A stretch of DNA of 64,000 nucleotides from a virus, in the IMG/VR virus record IMGVR_UViG_3300037264_001719, positions 18,332 through 82,331 of that record; one strand, written 5' to 3'. Positions 37,302 through 51,397 of this stretch are shown piece after piece; positions within the stretch are counted from its first letter, which is position 1; every line of letters begins with the position of its first letter. A program made the translations under genes and the position numbers. The notes under the pieces were generated by a model, which worked only from the letters and a program-made list of their open reading frames with translations, ran no database searches and had not been told where the DNA came from.

Positions 37302-39557
37302 ATGCTTCGATTTGTTCAACTTCGTCGTATCGAGTCCGATCTCTATAAGGCCGAGGCGATTTTCTTCGCCACGGGGATCGGGGACTCGGACGTGTCCGAC
37401 AACCGCGACACGCTCAACGTCCAAGCCCCCGATCACTTCTCCGGGGGAGACCTCCTCAAGATGATGTACCGGAGGGGGAAATGGATTGAGACCCGGGTTT
37501 ACGAACATCCCAAGCGAGCGAAGGAAGTCCTTTCGGGGGAATCGGAGGAGCCGAAGGCGTCGGAGGAGTCCGAGACCTTCGTTCCCATCATTGTTTCCGG
37601 GCCTCTAAATTACAAACCGGAGTGGGCGGACTTCCCTCCGGTTGAACGCCTCCGGGCATGGATCGCGGCTTCCGACCGCCCGACCATCTCCATCCTCATC
37701 CCCTCACAGGATCGTATTCCCCTGCTTATGGCCTGCCTCCTCTCGATTGAAGAAACGACGCGGGGATACGCAGTCGAAGTCGTGATCGGGGATTCGGGGA
37801 GCAAGTCGGATACTTTTAATTTCTACAGGAGCATTGGAATCCGGGTCGTTCACTTCAGCCAGCCTTTCAACTTCTCCGTGGTCTGTAATGGACTCGCCGC
37901 CGTAGCGAAGGGGGAGCACCTTCTTTTCCTCAACAACGACACCAAGGCGCTCACCCCCGGATGGCCGAAAGTTCTTATCGGGAGACGGAATGAGGTGATC
38001 GGGGCCGTCCTTGTTCACGACAAAGACCCGCAACTGATTCACCATGCCGGGCTCGAAATCGGACCCCATCCGAATTCAGGCAACGTGGTCCCCTTCTATT
38101 CCGGGCACACCGGATACCGGACGCCCATTCACGAGATCGACCAACTCGACACGAAGAAGCCCATCGCCGTGACGGGGGCCTTCCTCGCTGTCTCCAAGAA
38201 GGTATTTTTTCGGCTCGGGGGGTTCGACGTTGCCTTCCGGCTCGACCTGCAAGATGCCGACTTCTGCATTCGGGCGAGGGAGATCGGAGTCAAAGTGTCA
38301 GTTTCGACTTCGGTCGTCTTCTCCCATGTCTCAAGCGGTAGCCGGGAAGGGGGTCAACTGGACTTCCCTGAGAACAACTGGAAGTTCTTCTCCGGCAGGC
38401 GCGGAAAGTCGATCTACCAATGGGATGCCGTGGGGAATGTTTCTCCCCGTAAGGAACAAGGGCGAGTGCTCATCATCGACGATCACGCCCCTGATCCGAA
38501 CGTGGGGCTTCATGTCCCCCGGGCCAAAAGTATCCTTGAGTTCATGGCGGCGCTCGATTACCGGGTGTCTGTGTTTCAGACGCTCAATCAGAACGTAAGC
38601 CGGGAATGGCTCGACCGGATGCTCTATCTCGGTATCGATGTGGTCACGGATTCCCCGGATTTCAACGCCTTCTCTCGGGAACGAGCGGGGTTTTACGACA
38701 CGGTGTACATCTCCCGGCCCCACAATCTCCGGCGCTTCTTCAACCTCGCCCGATCCCGATTCCCGAAAGCGCAGATCATCTACGACGCCGAGGCCCTCTT
38801 CTATGTTCGGGAGAAACTCAAGGCCGCACTTTTCGGGCTCAACCCCGAACGATCCAACGCGGAGGAGCGTCTCGAACTTGACATGATGGGGCCTGCGGAC
38901 AAGATCGTTTCTGTTTCTGAGGCCGAGAAGAAGATCATCGAAGCGTCCCGTCCTGCCCTTCGGGGAAAGGTCCATGTGTGGGGGCACTCTCTCCCCCTCC
39001 GGCCCACGTCGGGCGGATTCAGGGATCGCCGGGGAATCCTTTTCACGGGGAATCTCAATGCGGATAATCCCAACGAGGATTCCATCATGTACTTCGCGCA
39101 GGAAATCCTGCCGGAAGTCCGCTCGAAGATCGAATGCTCCCTCGCCATCACGGGGTCCAATCCTACCGAGAGGGTGCGGAATCTTGCGGACGGTTCAATT
39201 CGTGTGACGGGATACCTCACCGAGAGCCAGCTTCTTGATTACTACAAGAGCTATCGAGTCTTCATCGTCCCCACGAGATTTGCCGCCGGAATCCCGTGGA
39301 AGCTCCATGAGGCCATGAGTTACGGAATTCCTGCCGTGGTGACAGACCTCATCGCCGCGCAACTCGGACTCAAGGATGGACAGGGAGTTCTCGTCGCCCG
39401 AACCCCCAAGGAGTTTGCCCACAAAGTCATCCGGCTTTACACCGAGGAGACGCTCTGGAACTATGTCCGAATGACCTGTCTTGATACCATCCGTGCCACT
39501 TGCGATCCTGAAACCATGAAGAAGGAACTCGGGAAGATATTGTCGAGGAAGGAATGA
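37302..39557 (+). CDS. Two-domain glycosyltransferase (GT2 then GT4)
   Basis: Encodes 751 residues. Residues about 128-370 form a GT-A (GT2) domain (PTISILIPSQDRIPLLMACL, NNDTKALTPGW near 210, DLQDADFCIRAREIGVKVSV). Residues about 386-751 form a GT-B (GT4) domain (RVLIIDDHAPDP, RGILFTGNLNADNPNEDS near 576, IRVTGYLTESQLLDYYKSYR, PWKLHEAMSYGIPAVVTD). The first 125 residues are unassigned. Such tandem enzymes extend polysaccharides with two sugar types. In a phage they may modify host O-antigen or decorate the virion. The next gene starts inside its stop region. Confidence 0.88.
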   Translation: MLRFVQLRRIESDLYKAEAIFFATGIGDSDVSDNRDTLNVQAPDHFSGGDLLKMMYRRGKWIETRVYEHPKRAKEVLSGESEEPKASEESETFVPIIVSGPLNYKPEWADFPPVERLRAWIAASDRPTISILIPSQDRIPLLMACLLSIEETTRGYAVEVVIGDSGSKSDTFNFYRSIGIRVVHFSQPFNFSVVCNGLAAVAKGEHLLFLNNDTKALTPGWPKVLIGRRNEVIGAVLVHDKDPQLIHHAGLEIGPHPNSGNVVPFYSGHTGYRTPIHEIDQLDTKKPIAVTGAFLAVSKKVFFRLGGFDVAFRLDLQDADFCIRAREIGVKVSVSTSVVFSHVSSGSREGGQLDFPENNWKFFSGRRGKSIYQWDAVGNVSPRKEQGRVLIIDDHAPDPNVGLHVPRAKSILEFMAALDYRVSVFQTLNQNVSREWLDRMLYLGIDVVTDSPDFNAFSRERAGFYDTVYISRPHNLRRFFNLARSRFPKAQIIYDAEALFYVREKLKAALFGLNPERSNAEERLELDMMGPADKIVSVSEAEKKIIEASRPALRGKVHVWGHSLPLRPTSGGFRDRRGILFTGNLNADNPNEDSIMYFAQEILPEVRSKIECSLAITGSNPTERVRNLADGSIRVTGYLTESQLLDYYKSYRVFIVPTRFAAGIPWKLHEAMSYGIPAVVTDLIAAQLGLKDGQGVLVARTPKEFAHKVIRLYTEETLWNYVRMTCLDTIRATCDPETMKKELGKILSRKE

Positions 39558-40297
39558 AGATTCACGTTTACATGATTTTCTACAACGAGGAAGTGATCCT
39601 TCCTTACTTTCTTCGGCACTACGGGGCGTTTGCTGAGAAGATCGTGTGCTTCGACAACCGGAGCACCGACCGATCCGCCGCCATCGTGGACGCCCATCCC
39701 AAGACGGAGAGGATCGTTTTCGACACGGGCGAAGGGATGTTCGACCGGATTCATCTCGATCTCAAGTCCGAGTATCGGAAGTCCCGGGGGAAGGCGGATT
39801 GGGTCATCTGCGTGGATTGCGATGAGTTCATCTACCATCCCGATATTGTCGGTCTTTTGACGAAGTATAAAAAGGAAGGGATCACCTACCCCAAGGTGCA
39901 GGGATTCGAGATGGTCTCCGAGCACACGCCTGTCGGGAACAAGCAAATCTTCGAGGAGGTTCGGAACGGATTCCCGAACGAAGGCTACGCCAAGCGCATC
40001 CTTTTCGCCCCTGAACTGGAAATCCAATTCGCCCCGGGATGTCACACCGCAAATGTCTCGGGCTGCGTCGTTGAAAGTCCGCAGGCCGATCTCAAGCTCC
40101 TCCATTACCGATTCTTGGGGAGGGACTTCTTCATCAACAGGTCCATCGAGCGGAGGGCGAGACTCAGCGAGGAGAACAAAAAGTGCGGATGGGGAACCCA
40201 CTACCTCAACCCGGATGCGTACTTCTTGAACTTGTTCAACGAAGTGAGTGCTATCTCGAAGCCCGTCGTTACGGAACTTCCAGTCCAAAGGTCTTGA
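39554..40297 (+). CDS. Glycosyltransferase (GT2/GT92-like)
   Basis: Encodes 247 residues starting in the 4-base overlap with the previous gene. IHVYMIFYNEEVILPYFLRH, then EKIVCFDNRSTDRSAAIVDA and ADWVICVDCDEFIYHPDI (the DxD-type metal site) are typical of the glycosyltransferase family 2/92 fold. The C-terminus holds several His and Arg residues (KLLHYRFLGRDFFINRSIER). It belongs to the sugar-modification island. Its 3' end overlaps the minus-strand glycosyltransferase by 29 bases. Confidence 0.85.
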   Translation: MKIHVYMIFYNEEVILPYFLRHYGAFAEKIVCFDNRSTDRSAAIVDAHPKTERIVFDTGEGMFDRIHLDLKSEYRKSRGKADWVICVDCDEFIYHPDIVGLLTKYKKEGITYPKVQGFEMVSEHTPVGNKQIFEEVRNGFPNEGYAKRILFAPELEIQFAPGCHTANVSGCVVESPQADLKLLHYRFLGRDFFINRSIERRARLSEENKKCGWGTHYLNPDAYFLNLFNEVSAISKPVVTELPVQRS

Positions 40298-41555
40298 GGA
40301 AGGGCAGAAGTTCAGCGATCTTGTCCTGCCACTTCCAGCGGGCGTGTGCGTTTGCGCTCGCGGCGATTCCTCGATCCCTTGCCATTTCCCGGCTTGACGC
40401 GCAGAGTTCCATCAGGTGAACGAGGTGGTCAAGGTCGGGCTCGGCCTGATCCCCTGCATCGCAGGAAGAGGGAATCCACTTCGCCACTTTTAGAGGGAGC
40501 GTTCCGTTCGGGATCGAAGTGTCCTTGTAACCGAAAGCGTCGGTGGCGATACAGGGGAGCCCCGTTGCTTCGCATTCCAGCTTCGGGAGTCCGAAGCCCT
40601 CGGCACGGCTCGGGAACACCCCGCAGTCCATTTCCGCGAGAAGCCCCTTGAGTTCCATCGGGGGGTAGCTCTTGAAGTCCCACACGATGCGGGGATCGGT
40701 TGCCGTCTTCTTCCGGTACTCCTTCGACTCGGGGTTCTCCCATTGGGCCTTCATGTAGAGCCGGATGTCCTGCCGCTTGATTCGGCGCATCGCCTCTAGC
40801 AGAAGATCGGTCCCCTTCCGAGCTTGCACGTCCGCAAAGTGAAAGAACGTAAACGGCTTCCGGTCAAGCGGTCGGTCAATGCGCGGGAATTGTTCGGGGT
40901 CGATGCCGTGCCCGAAGACGTGAACTGGGCAGGTGAGACCGGAGTCGATGATCGCTTTTTTCGTTGCTTCGGATGTCGCCAGCATCGCATCGAAATGTTT
41001 GAAGAAGTCCATGAGCCAACGGGCGGGGAGCGTTCCTTCGCATTGAAAGTAGCCCATGAGGGCGTGCGACAGGCGCTCGGCCTTGTGAAACGGTTCTGGC
41101 GGAACACGCCTCCGAGCATTGAGGATCGTGATTGTTCTGTCGATGTCCTCGGTCATGTGGGCTCTTGGGAACGTCACGTCCCCGTCCACCTTGCCCCACG
41201 AAAGCATCTTCACGGGAATCTTGGCGGCGAGAAGCTCCCGAACGACGGCATAGTTGAACCACTTGAAAGAGCCGCCGTATCCGAATCCAAGTCCGCCCCA
41301 CGTCAGACCCCGAACCTTCTGCGTGAGTCGTCTCGCCGCCCGAACTTCCTTCATGAGCGGGGCCTTGAGTTCGATCTTCCCTTCCCGGTAGCAGTAGTCG
41401 TTGACGAGGTTCCTCAGCCCTGCGTAGGTTCCTTTCAGGAAAACGAAATCCCCTCGGAGGTCCGAAGAATCGGGCATGACCCGCCAACGATGGGTTGATT
41501 GGATTTCCCGAATTCCGGGGCTGATTTCGGGGCCGAGTTGAATGACCTGTTTCAT
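40269..41555 (-). CDS. Glycosyltransferase (GT4 family), minus strand
   Basis: Encodes 428 residues on the minus strand, the only convincing reverse-strand gene. The C-terminal half carries the GT4 pattern: KPFTFFHFADVQARKGTDLL, DPRIVWDFKSYPPMELKGLL and SRAEGFGLPKLECEATGLPC (the EGFGLPxLE motif). The N-terminal half contains GGLGFGYGGSFKW. It is convergent with the preceding glycosyltransferase and overlaps its end, which suggests later insertion as a self-contained cargo gene. An independent promoter is expected upstream near 41.6 kb on the minus strand, but I see no clear one. Confidence 0.88.
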   Translation of the reverse strand: MKQVIQLGPEISPGIREIQSTHRWRVMPDSSDLRGDFVFLKGTYAGLRNLVNDYCYREGKIELKAPLMKEVRAARRLTQKVRGLTWGGLGFGYGGSFKWFNYAVVRELLAAKIPVKMLSWGKVDGDVTFPRAHMTEDIDRTITILNARRRVPPEPFHKAERLSHALMGYFQCEGTLPARWLMDFFKHFDAMLATSEATKKAIIDSGLTCPVHVFGHGIDPEQFPRIDRPLDRKPFTFFHFADVQARKGTDLLLEAMRRIKRQDIRLYMKAQWENPESKEYRKKTATDPRIVWDFKSYPPMELKGLLAEMDCGVFPSRAEGFGLPKLECEATGLPCIATDAFGYKDTSIPNGTLPLKVAKWIPSSCDAGDQAEPDLDHLVHLMELCASSREMARDRGIAASANAHARWKWQDKIAELLPFLKTFGLEVP

Positions 41556-41951: not shown

Positions 41952-42887
41952 ATGAAGAAGGCCCTGCTAGTCGGCATCAACGCCTACCCGACCTCCCCGC
42001 TTCGCGGCTGTCTCAACGACGTGGAGGACTGGCACCGCCTCATCACCACGGTCGGACAATACAGCCCGGACAACGTGCGAGCCCTGTGCGACAGCCGGGC
42101 GACCACGCAGGCCATCAAGGACAGGCTGACGTGGCTCCGCGAGGGTATCCGGCCCGGCGATGAGGTGCTCTTTCAGTTCAGCGGTCACGGATCACAGGTC
42201 CGTGACCGTGGTGTTCTGGATGAACTCGCGGACCACATGGACGAGATCATCTGCCCGGTCGATCTCGACTGGGACCAGAAGCTCATCACCGACGACGATC
42301 TTTCGGACTGGATCGCCGGATTCCCCAAGGGCGTCCGGGTCATCGTCGTTCTCGACTCCTGCCACTCGGGGACGGGGACGCGAGACTTCCGTCCTCCGAT
42401 GGAGAACCCCCACTACAAGGCCGACCGATACCTCCCGCCTCCGCTGGACATCGAGCTTCGCGGAAGATCGGTCGAGGGGAGCCGCGCCCCCATGAAGCGT
42501 TCGCGGATCGGCTACGGGAACAAGTCCGGGTTTGCCCGGAAGATGAAGGCCAAGAGCCGAGGCTGGGTTCCGTGGTGGTTCCGTTTCCGCATTCGTCCGA
42601 AGCCGAAGCCCGTGATCGTTGCGCCTGTCGCTCCGGCTGTTCCGGGCGGGAATCACGTCCTCATCTCCGGGTGCCGGAGCGATCAGACCAGCGCCGATGC
42701 CTTCATCAACAATCGGTACAACGGGGCGCTGACCCGGTACTTCGTGAACGAAGTGACGCAGAGCCCGGGGAGGAAACTCGCGGAGGTTCATGCGGCGGCG
42801 AAGGCTGCGATTCTCTCCGGCGGGTTCACTCAGGAATCCCAGCTTGAGGGGCCACCTTCTTACATGGACATCCCCTTTTTCGGGTAG
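41952..42887 (+). CDS. Metacaspase (caspase-like cysteine protease, C14)
   Basis: Encodes 311 residues. The p20-like domain is textbook: KKALLVGINAYPTSPLRGC, catalytic His79 in FQFSGHGSQ, catalytic Cys137 in VLDSCHSGTG, and the p10-like GNHVLISGCRSDQTSADAF with its substrate-pocket residues. A basic, Pro-rich linker (about 165-210) separates the two parts. Metacaspases cleave after Arg or Lys and act in bacterial and lower-eukaryote stress or death pathways. There is no signal peptide, so cytoplasmic action is expected. A phage copy might trigger, mimic or block host death or help process virion proteins. Confidence 0.93.
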   Translation: MKKALLVGINAYPTSPLRGCLNDVEDWHRLITTVGQYSPDNVRALCDSRATTQAIKDRLTWLREGIRPGDEVLFQFSGHGSQVRDRGVLDELADHMDEIICPVDLDWDQKLITDDDLSDWIAGFPKGVRVIVVLDSCHSGTGTRDFRPPMENPHYKADRYLPPPLDIELRGRSVEGSRAPMKRSRIGYGNKSGFARKMKAKSRGWVPWWFRFRIRPKPKPVIVAPVAPAVPGGNHVLISGCRSDQTSADAFINNRYNGALTRYFVNEVTQSPGRKLAEVHAAAKAAILSGGFTQESQLEGPPSYMDIPFFG

Positions 42888-42890
42888 TCC

Positions 42891-43403
42891 ATGTCTGAAG
42901 ATACGAAGACCCACGGGAAGCCTTCGGCATGGGGCCTCAAGAGTCTCATGGCGGTCATCGGGGGCGGACTCCTCAGTACGTTCGCCACGATCATCTGGAC
43001 CGGATTTGAGAAGACCCACGAAGCCATCGGCCAGTTGACCTCCAAGGTCAAGGAACTCGAAGACGAACGGAGCAAGTGGGGCCTTCTGACGGAACTCCAC
43101 AACCACATGATCGCGCTCGACAAGAAGGCGACGATCAATGAGGTCAATCACGAATGGGTGAAATGGACCATCGGGGTCGGGCGAATTGAAGTTCCTGTCT
43201 CCGTAATCCCCGCGCCGGAGCCGAAACCGGAGCCGGGGCCGAAACCTGTACCTGTCGTACCTCCCGATCCGCCGCCGCAAAAAACGGAACCGCCCAAGAA
43301 GTTGCCTTTCGATCAGCAAAAGAAGCCCCTCGACCCCGACGACTTGAGGCGACTGTACGAACAGAAGTACCCGAACGAATTCTTCAAGAAGGGCGAAAAA
43401 TAG
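42891..43403 (+). CDS. Membrane protein with coiled coil and proline-rich tail
   Basis: Encodes 170 residues. One N-terminal membrane span (19-39, LMAVIGGGLLSTFATIIWTG) is followed by a coiled coil and a TonB-like proline tract (about 106-133, PEPKPEPGPKPVPVVPPDPP) and a charged end. The topology (short cytoplasmic N-terminus, long periplasmic part) recalls i-spanins and TonB-like linkers. It abuts the metacaspase stop by three bases and overlaps the next gene (TAGTG). Function not established. Confidence 0.72.
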   Translation: MSEDTKTHGKPSAWGLKSLMAVIGGGLLSTFATIIWTGFEKTHEAIGQLTSKVKELEDERSKWGLLTELHNHMIALDKKATINEVNHEWVKWTIGVGRIEVPVSVIPAPEPKPEPGPKPVPVVPPDPPPQKTEPPKKLPFDQQKKPLDPDDLRRLYEQKYPNEFFKKGEK

Positions 43404-44086
43404 TGCAGAACGTCCTTGCCTCCATCGTCGGGTCTATGCGGGAAGTCCCTGAATGTCTTGCCACGGATGTCCAATCCCAATCGACGGCGAAAGTGAGGAT
43501 GCTTCTCAACAGACTCGTTGCGGAGCTTCCTTCCAACGAGTCATACTTCGAGGTCGGGTGCCTCAAGGGGGGAACGCTCATCAGCGCCCTCCTCAACAAC
43601 CTCAACGCCACGGCTTACGCCTGCGACAACTGGACCGAGTACCTCAACGAGAACCCCGAGCAAATCTTCTGGAACAACCTCAAGAAGTACAAGGGGCGGA
43701 TGGCCGAGCCCAAGGTCATCAAGGACAGTTGTTGGAACCTTGTGACCACGCCCCCGTTCGAGAAGCCTATCGGGGTTTACTTCTACGACGGGGACCACAC
43801 CTTCGAGTCTCAGAAGAAGGCGCTCACCCACTTCTACAAGTTTTTCGCGGAGCGAGTCGTTGTCATCGTGGACGATTGGAATTGGGACGCTGTGAAAACC
43901 GGGACGTGGGCGGGAATCGCGGAGATCAAGCCCAAGCACGTCTTCTACCTTGAACTTCCGTCTCGGAGGAACGGGGACCTCGAAAACTACCACAACGGAA
44001 TCGGGGCGTTCTATCTGGAGTTCGGGGAGAACAAGTTCTATACCCCGTCAACCGCGCCCGGCAAAATACCTGCGGCTGTAAAATAG
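43403..44086 (+). CDS. Class I SAM-dependent methyltransferase (Methyltransf_24-like)
   Basis: Encodes 227 residues from GTG 43403. The SAM-binding loop reads YFEVGCLKGGTL (48-59), and IGVYFYDGDHTFESQKKALT (from about 123) is the diagnostic DGDH of Methyltransf_24 enzymes, which often methylate sugars of surface glycans or antibiotics. A WNWDAVKTGTWAG block lies near the C-terminus. Placement among glycosyltransferases and the sulfotransferase suggests a sugar O-methyltransferase, inferred from context. Confidence 0.82.
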   Translation: MQNVLASIVGSMREVPECLATDVQSQSTAKVRMLLNRLVAELPSNESYFEVGCLKGGTLISALLNNLNATAYACDNWTEYLNENPEQIFWNNLKKYKGRMAEPKVIKDSCWNLVTTPPFEKPIGVYFYDGDHTFESQKKALTHFYKFFAERVVVIVDDWNWDAVKTGTWAGIAEIKPKHVFYLELPSRRNGDLENYHNGIGAFYLEFGENKFYTPSTAPGKIPAAVK

Positions 44087-44176: not shown

Positions 44177-44740
44177 ATGAGGCGGTGCCTCTTCGTGCGT
44201 CTGATGACGCTGGCGGTTGTTTCCCTGATGCTCCCCGGATGCGGTTCAACTGGAGGACTCCAGATCGACCCGCAGGACGCGGCGAAGTACGTCCAGATCG
44301 GCGCGGAGAAGGCGGTGGACCTCGGCCTCAAGGCCCTCTCCAAGGACGCGGCGAGCTTCACCAACGTCAAGAAGTGGAGCGGCGAAGCCAAGGACGCCAT
44401 CGACAAGGCGGTTCTCCCCCTGTTCACCGGAGCAGGCGTCGGAGACGTGACGCTGGCGACGGCGAATCAGGCTCTCCAGATTCTCGACGAGAAGATCAAC
44501 CCTGTATTGAAGGGCGTGATCCAACTCGGCGTGAACACCGCGCTCGCTTACATCAAAATGCCCGCCAACCCCACGGACAAGCTCTCGCCTGATGCGAAGG
44601 CGATCATCGTCGCCCTCTTCAACGGGATGAGTGCGGGGGCCGGGAACTTCGCCAAGTGGGATGGTCCTGCCAGCCGCGATCCCAGCCCCGTGCCGCCCGT
44701 CGTCTCCCTCGGGTGGAACTGGGGAGGCAAAGGCCCGTAG
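44177..44740 (+). CDS. Predicted outer-membrane-type lipoprotein
   Basis: Encodes 187 residues. A signal peptide (MRRCLFVRLMTLAVVSLMLP) ends in the lipobox LPGC with acylation at Cys22. The mature part is alanine-rich and helical (DAAKYVQIGAEKAVDLGLKA, LQILDEKINPVLKGVIQLG) and ends Gly/Pro-rich. Phage lipoproteins are commonly o-spanins or superinfection-exclusion factors; it is long for an o-spanin. Translation is strong (AAGGAGG). Its stop overlaps the next GTG (TAGTG). Confidence 0.85.
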   Translation: MRRCLFVRLMTLAVVSLMLPGCGSTGGLQIDPQDAAKYVQIGAEKAVDLGLKALSKDAASFTNVKKWSGEAKDAIDKAVLPLFTGAGVGDVTLATANQALQILDEKINPVLKGVIQLGVNTALAYIKMPANPTDKLSPDAKAIIVALFNGMSAGAGNFAKWDGPASRDPSPVPPVVSLGWNWGGKGP

Positions 44741-46038
44741 TGTCGGCAGAGGTTCTCCCCGGAGCCGTCCGAATCCCGGTCAAGCCCAAGCGTAACGAAG
44801 GCGAGTTCCGCGTCCTCGCCATGCGGAGGTCCGGGCACCACGGGTTCATTCGGTGGTTGCTCGGGCATTTCTCCGGCGAGGTCGTTTTCCAAAATGATGT
44901 CTCCGTCCTTCGAGCCGAGAACACCTCCACTTTCTGCCCCTCTGCGAACGGGACTCGGCAGGCGTTCGTATTCAACGTCGAGAACCCCGACATCCCGAAC
45001 GTCATGAGCCAAATCTCCTCGGATTGCTGGAGAACGAACAAGGGGCCGAGCGACAAGACGCACACCCTTGTCCTCCTGCGAGACCCGTACAACTGGATTG
45101 CCAGCCGGATCAAGGCATGGGGAGCCCGGGAGCAGTACGGAGGCACCTCCATCCTTTCGGAAGTCGCGCTCTGGAAGCAACAAGCCCGGGAGTTTCTCGG
45201 GGAGACGGAGTATCTCCCGAAGGATACGCTGTTCGTCTCCTACGTTGAATGGTTTCGGAGCGCGGATTACCGCCGGGGGATTTCCGAGAAGCTCGGGCTT
45301 TCCTTCACCGACAAAAACCTCGGGATCAACATGAGGCTCGGGGGGAGCAGTTTCGATTCTATCGACAGCGACCCCCAAACGCTCAATGTCCTTGGCCGAT
45401 GGAAGAACTTCCTCCAGCACAAGGGCTACCTGTCCCTTTTTGACCGGGAACTTCTCGATCTTGCGGACAGAATCTTCGGAGATTTCTCCAAAGACATTCG
45501 AGCAAAACTTCCCCGCGCCCGTGGGGTCACGGTTTGGCTTACAGGGCTCCCCGGGGCAGGAAAGACCTCCATCGCCCGGGAGCTTGAGACCCGTCTCGGG
45601 GAAAAGAATTTCCTCGAAGTGCTTGACGGGGATCAAATGCGTCGCCTGCTCTGTTCCGACCTCGGGTTCTCCAAAGAGGATCGGGATGAGAACGCCCGGA
45701 GGATCGGCTATGCGGCGAGCATCCTGACGCGGAGGGGGGCAGTTGCCGTTGTATCGGTCATTTCCCCCTATCGGCAATCTCGGAGGGAAGCCCGCGAGAT
45801 GTCGAGCGACTTTGTGGAGGTTTACGTTCGTTGCTCCGTGACCGAGTGCCGCCGAAGAGACCCCAAAGGTCTTTACCTCAAGTCTCAGCAGGGGAATCTC
45901 AAGGGATTGACCGGGGTCGATGCGCCTTACGAAGTCCCTGAATCCCCGGAGATCGTCGTGGACACCGAGGCTCAGTCCCTTGAAGCCTGCGTCGTGCAGA
46001 TCATCAAGTATCTGCGGGACAAGGCCCTCGTGAAGTAA
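44740..46038 (+). CDS. Sulfotransferase / adenylylsulfate (APS) kinase fusion
   Basis: Encodes 432 residues from GTG 44740, which overlaps the lipoprotein stop; an upstream in-frame ATG at 44656 lies inside that gene. Residues 25-255 look like a sulfotransferase: LAMRRSGHHGFIRWLLGHF fits the 5'-phosphosulfate loop and LLRDPYNWIASRIKAW the 3'-phosphate motif. Residues 263-432 are an APS kinase with Walker A GLPGAGKTS (269-277), LDGDQMRRLL, ENARRIGYAA, VISPYRQSRR and RRRDPKGLY. APS kinase makes PAPS, the sulfotransferase donor, so the fusion couples donor synthesis to transfer. APS itself must come from a host ATP sulfurylase. Confidence 0.88.
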   Translation: MSAEVLPGAVRIPVKPKRNEGEFRVLAMRRSGHHGFIRWLLGHFSGEVVFQNDVSVLRAENTSTFCPSANGTRQAFVFNVENPDIPNVMSQISSDCWRTNKGPSDKTHTLVLLRDPYNWIASRIKAWGAREQYGGTSILSEVALWKQQAREFLGETEYLPKDTLFVSYVEWFRSADYRRGISEKLGLSFTDKNLGINMRLGGSSFDSIDSDPQTLNVLGRWKNFLQHKGYLSLFDRELLDLADRIFGDFSKDIRAKLPRARGVTVWLTGLPGAGKTSIARELETRLGEKNFLEVLDGDQMRRLLCSDLGFSKEDRDENARRIGYAASILTRRGAVAVVSVISPYRQSRREAREMSSDFVEVYVRCSVTECRRRDPKGLYLKSQQGNLKGLTGVDAPYEVPESPEIVVDTEAQSLEACVVQIIKYLRDKALVK

Positions 46039-46041
46039 CTC

Positions 46042-47373
46042 ATGGCGTCCTATTTCATCGACCTTGACGGGACGTTCTTCCTCTTCCCATCTCAGACCCC
46101 TGCGGAGAACGCCGTCGAGACCGTCCGAAGGCTCGCCTCCGAGGGGCACAGCATCATTTTCACCACGCTTCGGACCCGAAGTGATCCGAGGCTCGGGGAG
46201 ACGGCCACTCTTCGGAAACTCGCGGAACTCGGCGTCCCCTACAAGAGCATCGTGTGGCACGTCAAGTCTCCGCGCATCGTCGTGAACGACGACGGGGCCT
46301 TCGCATTCAATCACCCCCGGGATTCTGCGCTCACCTATGACCGCCTCCGGGTCAAGGACGTGATCCGCAGGAAGGTGGAAGCCGCGCTCGGAATGCTCGC
46401 GTGGGTCGGACTCCGCTACTACATCATCAACCCCGAGTTCATCGACGCGGACGATTACATCCAGACGATGCTTATTCTGGAGTCTCTTCTCGATCATGAT
46501 GGAGTTCACCACTTTGATCTGGTCCAGCGGTATCGCCAAGGTCGGAAGACTTCGATCAACGGAAACGACATCCCCATGAACGGCGCACTCCACCTCGGCC
46601 AGCTTCACAAGCTCCGGCAGAGCAACGACCCGGGGTACTTCGATCAAGGCGGGATCACCACCGGGGCGTGCATGAAAGTCTTCGGGATAGCGGCGTACTA
46701 CCCGAAGTTCCACGACCTCGTGTGGGCGGTGAATCAAGTCACTCGGATCACCCACGGATCGGCGGAAGCCCGTCTCGCGGCGATCCTCACGGCCCTCCGG
46801 TTCCGCCACGCACTTGAGGACATTGATGACCCGGACCTTCTCCTTCTGGACTTCTCCCGTGCGGCCCATGCGGTCGGACTATTTGGAACTCCTGCGTTTG
46901 ATGTAGTGTTTCGCGCCGCGAACAAGGCCCGGAACATTATTCGGACGGGGCGGGCGTTTGAGCAACTGGTCGAGCAGGTCGGTCTTATGTATCTGTGCTG
47001 GAGTTGCCCGGTGTCGGCGGTGTTCTGGTCTTACGTCCTCGACGATCACTACAAGGGATCGTTCGAGACCATCGGCTCTGACAAGCAATTCAAGCCGGAC
47101 GGAAAGCTCATCCTCGTGGACGAGGCGGTGAAGAAGGAGTACCTCGACTACCTCATCCAGACCAACCAGAGGGAGTTTGTTCAGCCCTACGTTTGGGAGT
47201 ACAACGAGCAGGGCAGGCAGGACTCCGACACGTTCTTCTCCATCGCGTTCTCCATTCGCGCCTGCCGTCACCCCGAGTTCCTCGCGCCCAAGGAACTTGA
47301 GGAAGCGAGAGCGGCGTTCGGAGACGACTGGACTCCTGCGATCAAACGGCTCATCGCCCGCCTGTACTGGTAG
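46042..47373 (+). CDS. HAD phosphatase / ADP-ribosylglycohydrolase (DraG/ARH) fusion
   Basis: Encodes 443 residues. Residues 1-100 are a small HAD domain: FIDLDGTFF with Asp7 and Asp9, threonines at 41-42, and IVVNDDGAF with Asp83-Asp84. From about 110 the sequence follows the ARH fold: IDADDYIQTMLILESLL (metal acids), GGITTGACMKVFGIAAYY, RITHGSAEARLAAILTALRF, and near the end RQDSDTFFSIAFSIRA (the DxDT metal motif). ARH enzymes remove ADP-ribose from proteins or nucleic acids. The N-terminal ARH helix is degenerate. A role in reversing host ADP-ribosylation defence is plausible inference. Confidence 0.78.
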   Translation: MASYFIDLDGTFFLFPSQTPAENAVETVRRLASEGHSIIFTTLRTRSDPRLGETATLRKLAELGVPYKSIVWHVKSPRIVVNDDGAFAFNHPRDSALTYDRLRVKDVIRRKVEAALGMLAWVGLRYYIINPEFIDADDYIQTMLILESLLDHDGVHHFDLVQRYRQGRKTSINGNDIPMNGALHLGQLHKLRQSNDPGYFDQGGITTGACMKVFGIAAYYPKFHDLVWAVNQVTRITHGSAEARLAAILTALRFRHALEDIDDPDLLLLDFSRAAHAVGLFGTPAFDVVFRAANKARNIIRTGRAFEQLVEQVGLMYLCWSCPVSAVFWSYVLDDHYKGSFETIGSDKQFKPDGKLILVDEAVKKEYLDYLIQTNQREFVQPYVWEYNEQGRQDSDTFFSIAFSIRACRHPEFLAPKELEEARAAFGDDWTPAIKRLIARLYW

Positions 47374-47898: not shown

Positions 47899-49008
47899 AT
47901 GAGGTTCGGACTGGTGAACGATCTGATTCGCGCCCACGAGGAGGCGGAAAATCCGGTCATGCTCTGGAGTCCCCCGGGGGTGGGGAAGTCGAGTCTCGTC
48001 AAGCAGTTGTGCGACGATGACGGGATCAAGAACATCGACATCCGGCTGTCGTTGTTGAACCCAGTTGACCTTCGAGGTATCCCTGTCGTGCAAGGCGACA
48101 AGGTGGTGTGGGTTCCCCCCGTCTTTCTGGTCAAGCAGGGACCTTGCCGTTTCTTCTGCGACGAAATCAACGTCGCGCCGCCTGCAACGCAGGCGTGCGC
48201 CTATCAATGGTTCCTCGACAAAAAGATCGGGGAGTGGGCGATGGACTTGACGCCCATGAAGACCAAGGCGGGGAACACTCGTCCGGCGCAGACCATCCTC
48301 GGCGCAGGGAACCGGGCGACCGATCAAGCGTTTGTTCACCAGATGCCTGCCCCTCTCCGCAACCGGGTGGCGCACATCGAGGTCGAGCCGAACTTCGAGG
48401 ACTGGCGGGAGTGGGCGTACAAGGCGGGCATCCACCGCTACGTCATCAACTATCTGACTTACACGGCCCGGGTGGGCGTCGATATCAAGGGCGTCTCGGC
48501 CTCGGAGACGGGCCTCCTCTTCTTCTTCGACCCCAAGCAACACGCGGCAGGCTCGTTCCCCACGCCCCGTTCGTGGGAGATGGTGAGTCGTTTCATCACG
48601 CGGAGCCCGAAGTACCGGACCAACACCGAAGCGGTCGCGGGCATGGTCAGCGCGTCGGTCGCTTCGAGTTTCACGGCGTTCGTCAAGGTCGCGGACGAGC
48701 TTCCGAACGCGGAGGAAGTTCTCGCCGGGAAGGACGCCAAGCCGCCCACCGAGCCTTCCGCGAAGTACGCTTTCTGCGGGGCTCTGGCGGCATCGCTCAT
48801 TCGGGCGAAGAAGGAAGACCGCGTGAAGGCGACGCAGAATGTCGCGGCCTACTGCGTGAATCGGTGGGGCGACGATGCCGAGTTCGCGGTCCTCACGATG
48901 AAGGATTTCGGAAGAACGCCCGAGTACAAAGAAATCTACCGTTCGGTCATCGTGTCGAAGGAGTGGACCCAGTTCACGAAGACCTTCGGGGACCTGCTCG
49001 AAAGCTAA
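47899..49008 (+). CDS. MoxR-type AAA+ ATPase
   Basis: Encodes 369 residues. Walker A is MLWSPPGVGKSSLV (about 21-34) and Walker B FFCDEIN (85-91); a sensor-like GAGNRATDQA and an arginine-bearing PLRNRVAHIEVEP follow. MoxR AAA+ proteins act as chaperones with VWA-domain partners to insert metals or remodel complexes. The partner gene lies 11 bases downstream. The consensus promoter lies just upstream. Confidence 0.9.
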   Translation: MRFGLVNDLIRAHEEAENPVMLWSPPGVGKSSLVKQLCDDDGIKNIDIRLSLLNPVDLRGIPVVQGDKVVWVPPVFLVKQGPCRFFCDEINVAPPATQACAYQWFLDKKIGEWAMDLTPMKTKAGNTRPAQTILGAGNRATDQAFVHQMPAPLRNRVAHIEVEPNFEDWREWAYKAGIHRYVINYLTYTARVGVDIKGVSASETGLLFFFDPKQHAAGSFPTPRSWEMVSRFITRSPKYRTNTEAVAGMVSASVASSFTAFVKVADELPNAEEVLAGKDAKPPTEPSAKYAFCGALAASLIRAKKEDRVKATQNVAAYCVNRWGDDAEFAVLTMKDFGRTPEYKEIYRSVIVSKEWTQFTKTFGDLLES

Positions 49009-50806: not shown

Positions 50807-51397
50807 ATGGGCGAAAATAGGGACTACCACCTCGGGTTCAACTTCGAGAGCGACGAGCCCACGGCCCGCTACTCCGCCTCGAAGGGCTACCGCGACACGG
50901 CGTACTTCTCCAAGATCACGGAGAATCTCTTCCTCGGGCCGGAGCCCACCGCGCAGGACGCGGACACCCTTCGCAATCTCGGGATCAAGAACATCCTCTC
51001 CGTGGCGAAGGAGTGCCACGACGAGTGGATCGGCTACGAGGGGAAGTTCAACCTCGTCTACGTCGGGATGCACGATCACAGCCCGCTTCCTCCGTGGCTG
51101 GCGAAGCAGGCCCTCACCACGCTCCGCGAGATGCTCAAGCGCGGGAAGACTCTCGTGCATTGTGGCATCGGGGTGTCTCGGTCCCCGACGACCATCGCGC
51201 TCTACTGGTACGCGATTGGTGAGACGGATTCGGTCGCGGAGGGCATCCAGCGCCTCCAGAAGATTCGGCCCTGCGTTGCTCCGAATCGGATCGTGGACGA
51301 CAATCTGATGCAGATGGTTTTCGCCCTCCGGCGTAGGTGGGCGAAGGGAACAACGGGGATTGACTCGACGCCCCGGGTTTCTACTGTCGTGAACTAA
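50807..51397 (+). CDS. Dual-specificity protein phosphatase
   Basis: Encodes 196 residues. The active site VHCGIGVSRSPTT carries Cys119 and Arg125 of the HCxxGxxR(S/T) signature. A preceding acid (HDHSPLP region, Asp90) can act as general acid. The KITENLFLGPEPTAQDADTL opening is the family hallmark of DSPs. It would remove phosphate from Tyr or Ser/Thr of host or phage proteins. It has its own promoter. Confidence 0.9.
   Translation: MGENRDYHLGFNFESDEPTARYSASKGYRDTAYFSKITENLFLGPEPTAQDADTLRNLGIKNILSVAKECHDEWIGYEGKFNLVYVGMHDHSPLPPWLAKQALTTLREMLKRGKTLVHCGIGVSRSPTTIALYWYAIGETDSVAEGIQRLQKIRPCVAPNRIVDDNLMQMVFALRRRWAKGTTGIDSTPRVSTVVN

Follow-up and report, generated by a model that had tools for sequence, protein, structure and literature searches.

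A phage protein combining an RSGxH-type sulfotransferase-like domain with an APS kinase suggests phage-encoded sulfation

APS kinases, PAPS-dependent sulfotransferases, phage cysC genes and phage sulfotransferases are each already known, but as separate entities. The enzyme CysC occurs either alone or joined to ATP sulfurylase/CysN, and in PAPSS, Sat-APSK and CysNC the APS kinase is coupled with ATP sulfurylase. In phages, cysC is usually read as a gene of sulfate assimilation (PMC10914622, PMC9529941), and sulfotransferases have been reported with a function stated as unclear (PMC10580990). Neither a fusion of an APS kinase with a sulfotransferase nor a linkage of the two in phages was found in a search of open-licence papers, and earlier reports may exist. 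The protein analyzed here is a new combination of these known kinds of enzymes and suggests that some phages encode their own sulfation.

The window, i.e. the whole stretch of 64,000 nucleotides that was analyzed, corresponds to bases 18332–82331 of a linear IMG/VR record of 82,331 bases. Since this record encodes a terminase, a portal, a virion structural protein, a tail sheath and baseplate wedge proteins, it is assigned to a contractile-tailed phage. The fusion gene (44740–46038, + strand) is an intact open reading frame of 432 amino acids. Its GTG start codon shares one base with the TAG stop codon of the upstream frame, which codes for a small protein whose signal resembles that of a lipoprotein (LPGC; 44177–44740, + strand), and the next gene begins 3 bp after its own stop codon. 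The protein comprises an N-terminal RSGxH-type, PAPS sulfotransferase-like domain (44797–45510, + strand; residues ~20–257) followed by a C-terminal APS kinase domain (45514–46035, + strand; residues 259–432). The preliminary description had placed an APS kinase and a likely PAPS sulfotransferase on one polypeptide, and the single intact frame with both domains assigned bears this out.

Assignment of the C-terminal domain is straightforward. The PFAM entry PF01583 covers residues 259–431 over its full model (E-value 1e-54; 185 bits vs. a cut-off of 21.1), the NCBIfam entry TIGR00455 scores 202.9 bits against a cut-off of 138.7, and the nearest PDB chain is 5cb6 (E-value 3e-48, residues 259–427). 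All sequence motifs of active enzymes are retained, namely the Walker A P-loop, DGDxxR, ISPYR and KGLY...TGVDAPYE. The identity of this domain as an APS kinase is thus well supported and, as far as sequence can decide, settled, and the domain is likely active as such.

The fusion gene lies among genes of glycan type. Upstream of it are a two-domain glycosyltransferase of 751 residues (GT2 followed by GT4-type; 37302–39557, + strand), a GT2-family glycosyltransferase (Glyco_tranf_2_4; 39554–40297, + strand), a GT4-type glycosyltransferase (phrog_2170; 40269–41555, − strand) and a Methyltransf_24 methyltransferase (43403–44086, + strand). The three glycosyltransferase genes and the methyltransferase previously noted nearby were recovered, with the refinement that one gene carries two such domains, giving four glycosyltransferase domains. 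Further genes of glycan type lie to the left of the window (L002:835-6769), coding for a radical SAM/SPASM protein, an RmlD-like reductase and a DXD glycosyltransferase (PF04488). A protein with a dual-specificity phosphatase domain is encoded at 50807–51397 (PF00782, E-value 2e-12), and Rfam gave no match in the segment from 36 to 50 kb in the window.

Twenty-six related-phage records contain the same virion structural protein at 65–91% identity; the fusion is absent from all of them, many being fragments, and neither the sulfotransferase profile nor PF13469 matched in the 18 longer ones, likewise including many fragments. In the best record for comparison, G044, a caspase-like protein (Peptidase_C14; 41952–42887, + strand; 58% identical) and an AAA ATPase (phrog_1297; 47899–49008, + strand; 68% identical) are conserved as the left and right borders, respectively, of a slot that holds different proteins, and the glycosyltransferase block is absent. 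The same slot in the window also contains, directly downstream of the fusion gene, a protein combining an N-terminal HAD-like part with an ADP-ribosylglycohydrolase domain (46042–47373, + strand), which could reverse ADP-ribosylation in host defence. GC and GC3 contents amount to 0.58 and 0.755 for the sulfotransferase domain and to 0.60 and 0.71 for the APS kinase domain, vs. 0.64–0.65 and 0.86–0.93 for the structural-protein and sheath genes. The synteny with G044 together with the lower GC and GC3 of the cargo places the gene inside the phage, in a variable slot; both the phage location and the variable cargo slot are well supported by the sequence comparison, and the slot was probably filled recently. 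The lower GC and GC3, and the fact that a second copy of the fusion was never found in the searches, could also be taken to mean that the fusion is a chimera created by assembly, or that the gene is decaying and no longer functional. We give this explanation very little credence, given that the genes on either flank are syntenic with G044, that the frame is intact with the catalytic motifs of both domains retained, and that its start and stop are packed tightly against the neighbouring genes.

The N-terminal domain has no match in Pfam (none at E≤10), PHROG, NCBIfam or PDB sequences. Scans of IMG/VR with the N-terminal domain, the APS kinase domain or the full protein as single queries yielded no match, and tblastn searches of phage records with the N-terminal domain were empty or insignificant. 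Its family was first reached through plasmid matches by tblastn, at 23–28% identity (best E-values 4e-15 for Gemmatirosa and 6e-13 for Paracoccus). The alignment of these plasmid relatives led to 34 viral loci, and a second alignment to 140 bacterial relatives (80 retained); the bacterial members belong to cyanobacteria, Verrucomicrobiota, Bacteroidota, Pseudomonadota, Planctomycetota, Gemmatimonadota and others. In a quick family tree viral and bacterial members are intermixed, with at least 17 label changes, and the window domain is not firmly placed; the sequence closest to it is a Verrucomicrobia protein (38%). An APS kinase match, mostly strong, is present in 38 of 40 bacterial genomes carrying the family.

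Across 118 family sequences residues R30, G32, H34, W39, R114 and S122 are invariant and S31, E81, N118, F205 and R220 nearly so; R178 and the SSF motif (S203-S204-F205) are also essentially invariant. The predicted 5'-phosphosulfate loop of the window domain is R30-S31-G32-H33-H34. Loss of this loop in relatives had been raised beforehand as a point against a sulfotransferase; it is conserved in the 118 relatives, partly by construction since RSGxH served as the search pattern, whereas R114, N118, S122, E81, the SSF motif and R220 lay outside that pattern. The spacing of eight residues between R114 and S122 is that of the SULT Arg/Ser pair binding the 3'-phosphate of PAPS, and by this analogy the two residues form a putative 3'-phosphate-binding pair of the PAPS site; E81 is a candidate general base. 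Only one of 34 relatives touches Sulfotransfer_4 (E-value 0.02), and searching PDB sequences with a profile of the family gave nothing meaningful. As no curated sulfotransferase model matches, we consider the N-terminal domain to represent a new family within this fold class, distinct from Sulfotransfer_1/2/3, that merits its own Pfam model.

Structure prediction points in the same direction. AlphaFold2 run with a 34-row viral alignment gave a model of the N-terminal domain with a pLDDT of 83.6 and a pTM of 0.83, compared with a pLDDT of 33 for the single-sequence model. In a Foldseek search of the PDB the first 38 matches to this model are all sulfotransferases. The best of them is SULT7A1 (E-value 1.8e-4, probability 1.00), and SULTs, TPST1/2 and the mycobacterial Stf0 were matched as well. 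Identity to characterised sulfotransferases is 8–17%, with TM-scores of about 0.33–0.53 (about 0.5 to TPST1/2) and high rmsd. Against viral models, the named top matches are largely sulfotransferase-family proteins; the best viral structural match is an uncharacterised giant-virus protein (BFVD A0A1V0SH11, Hokovirus; TMq 0.63), and the RSGxH sulfotransferase fold, as modelled, may extend to giant viruses. The preliminary description had asked whether the domain might model as a non-sulfotransferase fold; the modelled fold is that of a sulfotransferase, and membership of this family and fold class is well supported by sequence and model. Sulfotransferases and P-loop kinases have a common core, and some kinase matches do appear lower in the Foldseek lists, so that the domain might be another P-loop enzyme of the same fold class, e.g. 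a nucleotide kinase. Only a slim chance is left to this possibility by the 38 leading sulfotransferase matches, by the RSGxH loop without the GKT/S of Walker A, and by the invariant Arg and Ser eight residues apart.

The acceptor of such a sulfotransferase is suggested by its relatives. Members of the N-terminal domain family are fused to glycosyltransferases in three proteins, the partner being a glycosyltransferase in L020, GT4-type plus methyltransferase domains in L054, and GT61 in L128. At a bacterial locus (L083) the RSGxH sulfotransferase is fused to Methyltransf_24, the same family as the methyltransferase gene at 43403–44086. Moreover, several plasmid relatives lie in polysaccharide loci, next to genes annotated as sulfotransferases and glycosyltransferases, and bacterial relatives occur in polysaccharide loci as well. 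None of the evidence speaks more strongly for a carbohydrate acceptor than these glycosyltransferase and methyltransferase fusions, and if the domain is active as a sulfotransferase we would expect with fair confidence that it acts on a glycan. Of the earlier proposal that the phage sulfates a glycan, the enzyme assignment stands, and the glycan acceptor draws its support from gene context and from the glycosyltransferase fusions of relatives. A genuine PAPS-making sulfotransferase could instead act on a lipid, a protein tyrosine, a nucleotide or a small metabolite: the acceptor pocket is unreadable from sequence, and TPSTs (protein tyrosine), SULTs (small molecules) and Stf0 (trehalose) score alike in Foldseek. 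This seems to us unlikely, if still a serious alternative, in view of the fusions in L020, L054 and L128, the location of relatives in polysaccharide loci and the three glycosyltransferase genes adjoining the fusion in the window phage.

A fusion with an APS kinase was found in none of 130 frames of the N-terminal domain family. No site covering 80% of the fusion protein (P0001) was present in any of the 504 plasmids matching it, nor in phage records. Plasmid matches covering about 53% of P0001 proved to be CysNC proteins rather than sulfotransferase fusions, and an apparent fusion in G088 (a 454-residue frame, 431-residue ORF) combines an APS-kinase-like with a methyltransferase-like domain.

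Linkage between separate genes, on the other hand, is encountered in other viruses. Phage G034 (L046) has an RSGxH sulfotransferase together with two RTGS-type sulfotransferase-like genes and with glycosyltransferase and methyltransferase genes; an APS kinase gene comes after them and overlaps one of the sulfotransferase-like genes. A phage sulfotransferase with PAPS supply is thus linked to glycosyltransferases both here and in L046. A scan of IMG/VR for APS kinases gave 80 loci (L179–L258), and 50 representative records, chosen by similarity to the APS kinase sequences of the present study, were analyzed. The APS kinase gene of L203 shares bases with an RSGxH-family gene amid sulfotransferase-like and methyltransferase genes; about 1 kb separates the APS kinase from the RSGxH-family gene in L219–L223, and L187 has sulfotransferases in tandem after its APS kinase. 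The run in L203 (L203:8522-13106) is made up of a Sulfotransfer_2-like gene, a CSGTN P-loop protein, the APS kinase with an apparent N-terminal membrane segment and the RSGxH-family gene (RCGQH), together with two methyltransferase-like genes and a further sulfotransferase-like gene of P-loop type. A sulfotransferase is present in 19 of the 50 records (17 with PF13469, 15 of these above the curated cut-off, and two of RSGxH type), vs. a PAPS-reductase-family gene in only two. In 13 of these 19 records no more than 10 kb separates the sulfotransferase from the APS kinase, where 4.4 would be expected under uniform placement (p about 1.5e-5), a value to be read with the caveat that auxiliary genes cluster for general reasons and that related records are not fully independent.

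The counts of 19 and two in 50 argue against the notion that all phage cysC genes serve sulfate assimilation; even with these caveats, the assimilatory reading does not fit most of the 50 genomes. The chances appear about even that several phage lineages carry sulfation islands, in which the APS kinase feeds glycan-modifying sulfotransferases, and that much of the "assimilatory" phage cysC is in fact concerned with sulfation. If so, the fusion would take this arrangement furthest, making the donor and using it within a single chain. For the window protein itself, the common annotation of phage cysC (PMC10914622, PMC9529941) would make the APS kinase an auxiliary metabolic gene for host sulfate assimilation and the N-terminal domain incidental or regulatory. 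This is improbable: the record lacks a PAPS-reductase-family gene, such genes are rare in records with viral APS kinases, where sulfotransferases are far commoner and often close, and the N-terminal domain retains all family-invariant residues. Two frames of 590–605 residues with a C-terminal APS kinase (L228:8729-10498 and L222:486-2300) have the size of Sat-APSK PAPS synthases, and a PAPS-reductase-family gene lies nearby in the L228 record, so that some phages may have a genuine module for assimilation. Many other viral APS kinases (L196, L180, L217, L209, L225, L233, L247 and others) are encoded by ORFs of about 310–360 residues, in which about 120 unassigned residues extend the protein at its C-terminus.

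Taken together, these data lead us to favour a bifunctional sulfation enzyme which quite probably makes PAPS from host APS and passes the sulfate to an acceptor, most likely a sugar. Neither a Sat-type ATP sulfurylase nor a CysD/CysH-family gene is found in the record, whose 82 kb may not be complete; as no ATP sulfurylase was found, the phage must obtain its APS from the host. We infer the catalytic activity, the channelling, the glycan acceptor and the destination of the sulfate as follows. Host ATP sulfurylase would supply APS, the C-terminal domain would phosphorylate it to PAPS, and the N-terminal domain would move the sulfuryl group from PAPS to the acceptor, releasing PAP. The fusion would hold the donor beside the consuming enzyme and away from the host PAPS reductase, which might help when PAPS pools are low. 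The acceptor would most likely be a sugar that the adjoining phage glycosyltransferases assemble or that the host displays on its surface. The sulfate could end up on the virion, on the host surface or on a secreted polysaccharide, and the outcome could be a sulfated surface glycan, altering e.g. receptor recognition or superinfection, or a decorated phage particle.

The fusion offers a directly testable system, since one protein making and presumably using PAPS shows the purpose of the pair, and the occurrence of the two activities in neighbouring genes of related viruses suggests that sulfation serves purposes of the phages themselves. Should sulfation alter the virion or the host surface, this would be a new phage surface chemistry relevant to the recognition of receptors, to superinfection and to the evasion of bacterial defence. 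Moreover, the linkage statistics offer a route to re-annotate phage cysC, a widely reported auxiliary gene.

Comparison with known systems defines what is particular to this protein. It resembles CysC in its full-length APS kinase domain, above the TIGR00455 cut-off and with complete motifs, but here this domain comes after a sulfotransferase domain. With PAPSS, Sat-APSK and CysNC it has in common the physical coupling of consecutive steps of sulfate activation; whereas those enzymes couple the APS kinase with the upstream step, the fusion couples it with a consumer of PAPS. With SULT, TPST, Stf0 and the Pfam Sulfotransfer clan the N-terminal domain shares the predicted fold, the RSG 5'-phosphosulfate loop and the Arg/Ser 3'-phosphate element, and it differs from known PAPS sulfotransferases in its RSGxH loop, its C-terminal GSSF...RW motif, the lack of a Pfam match and the fusion to an APS kinase. 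Phage sulfotransferase and cysC genes have been reported separately, without fusion or linkage (PMC10580990, PMC10914622), whereas here they are fused. Finally, in the PAPSS2-SULT2A1 pair (PMC6016456) an APS kinase-containing enzyme is likewise in direct contact with a sulfotransferase, but there the two are separate proteins in non-covalent association, whereas in the phage they form one polypeptide.
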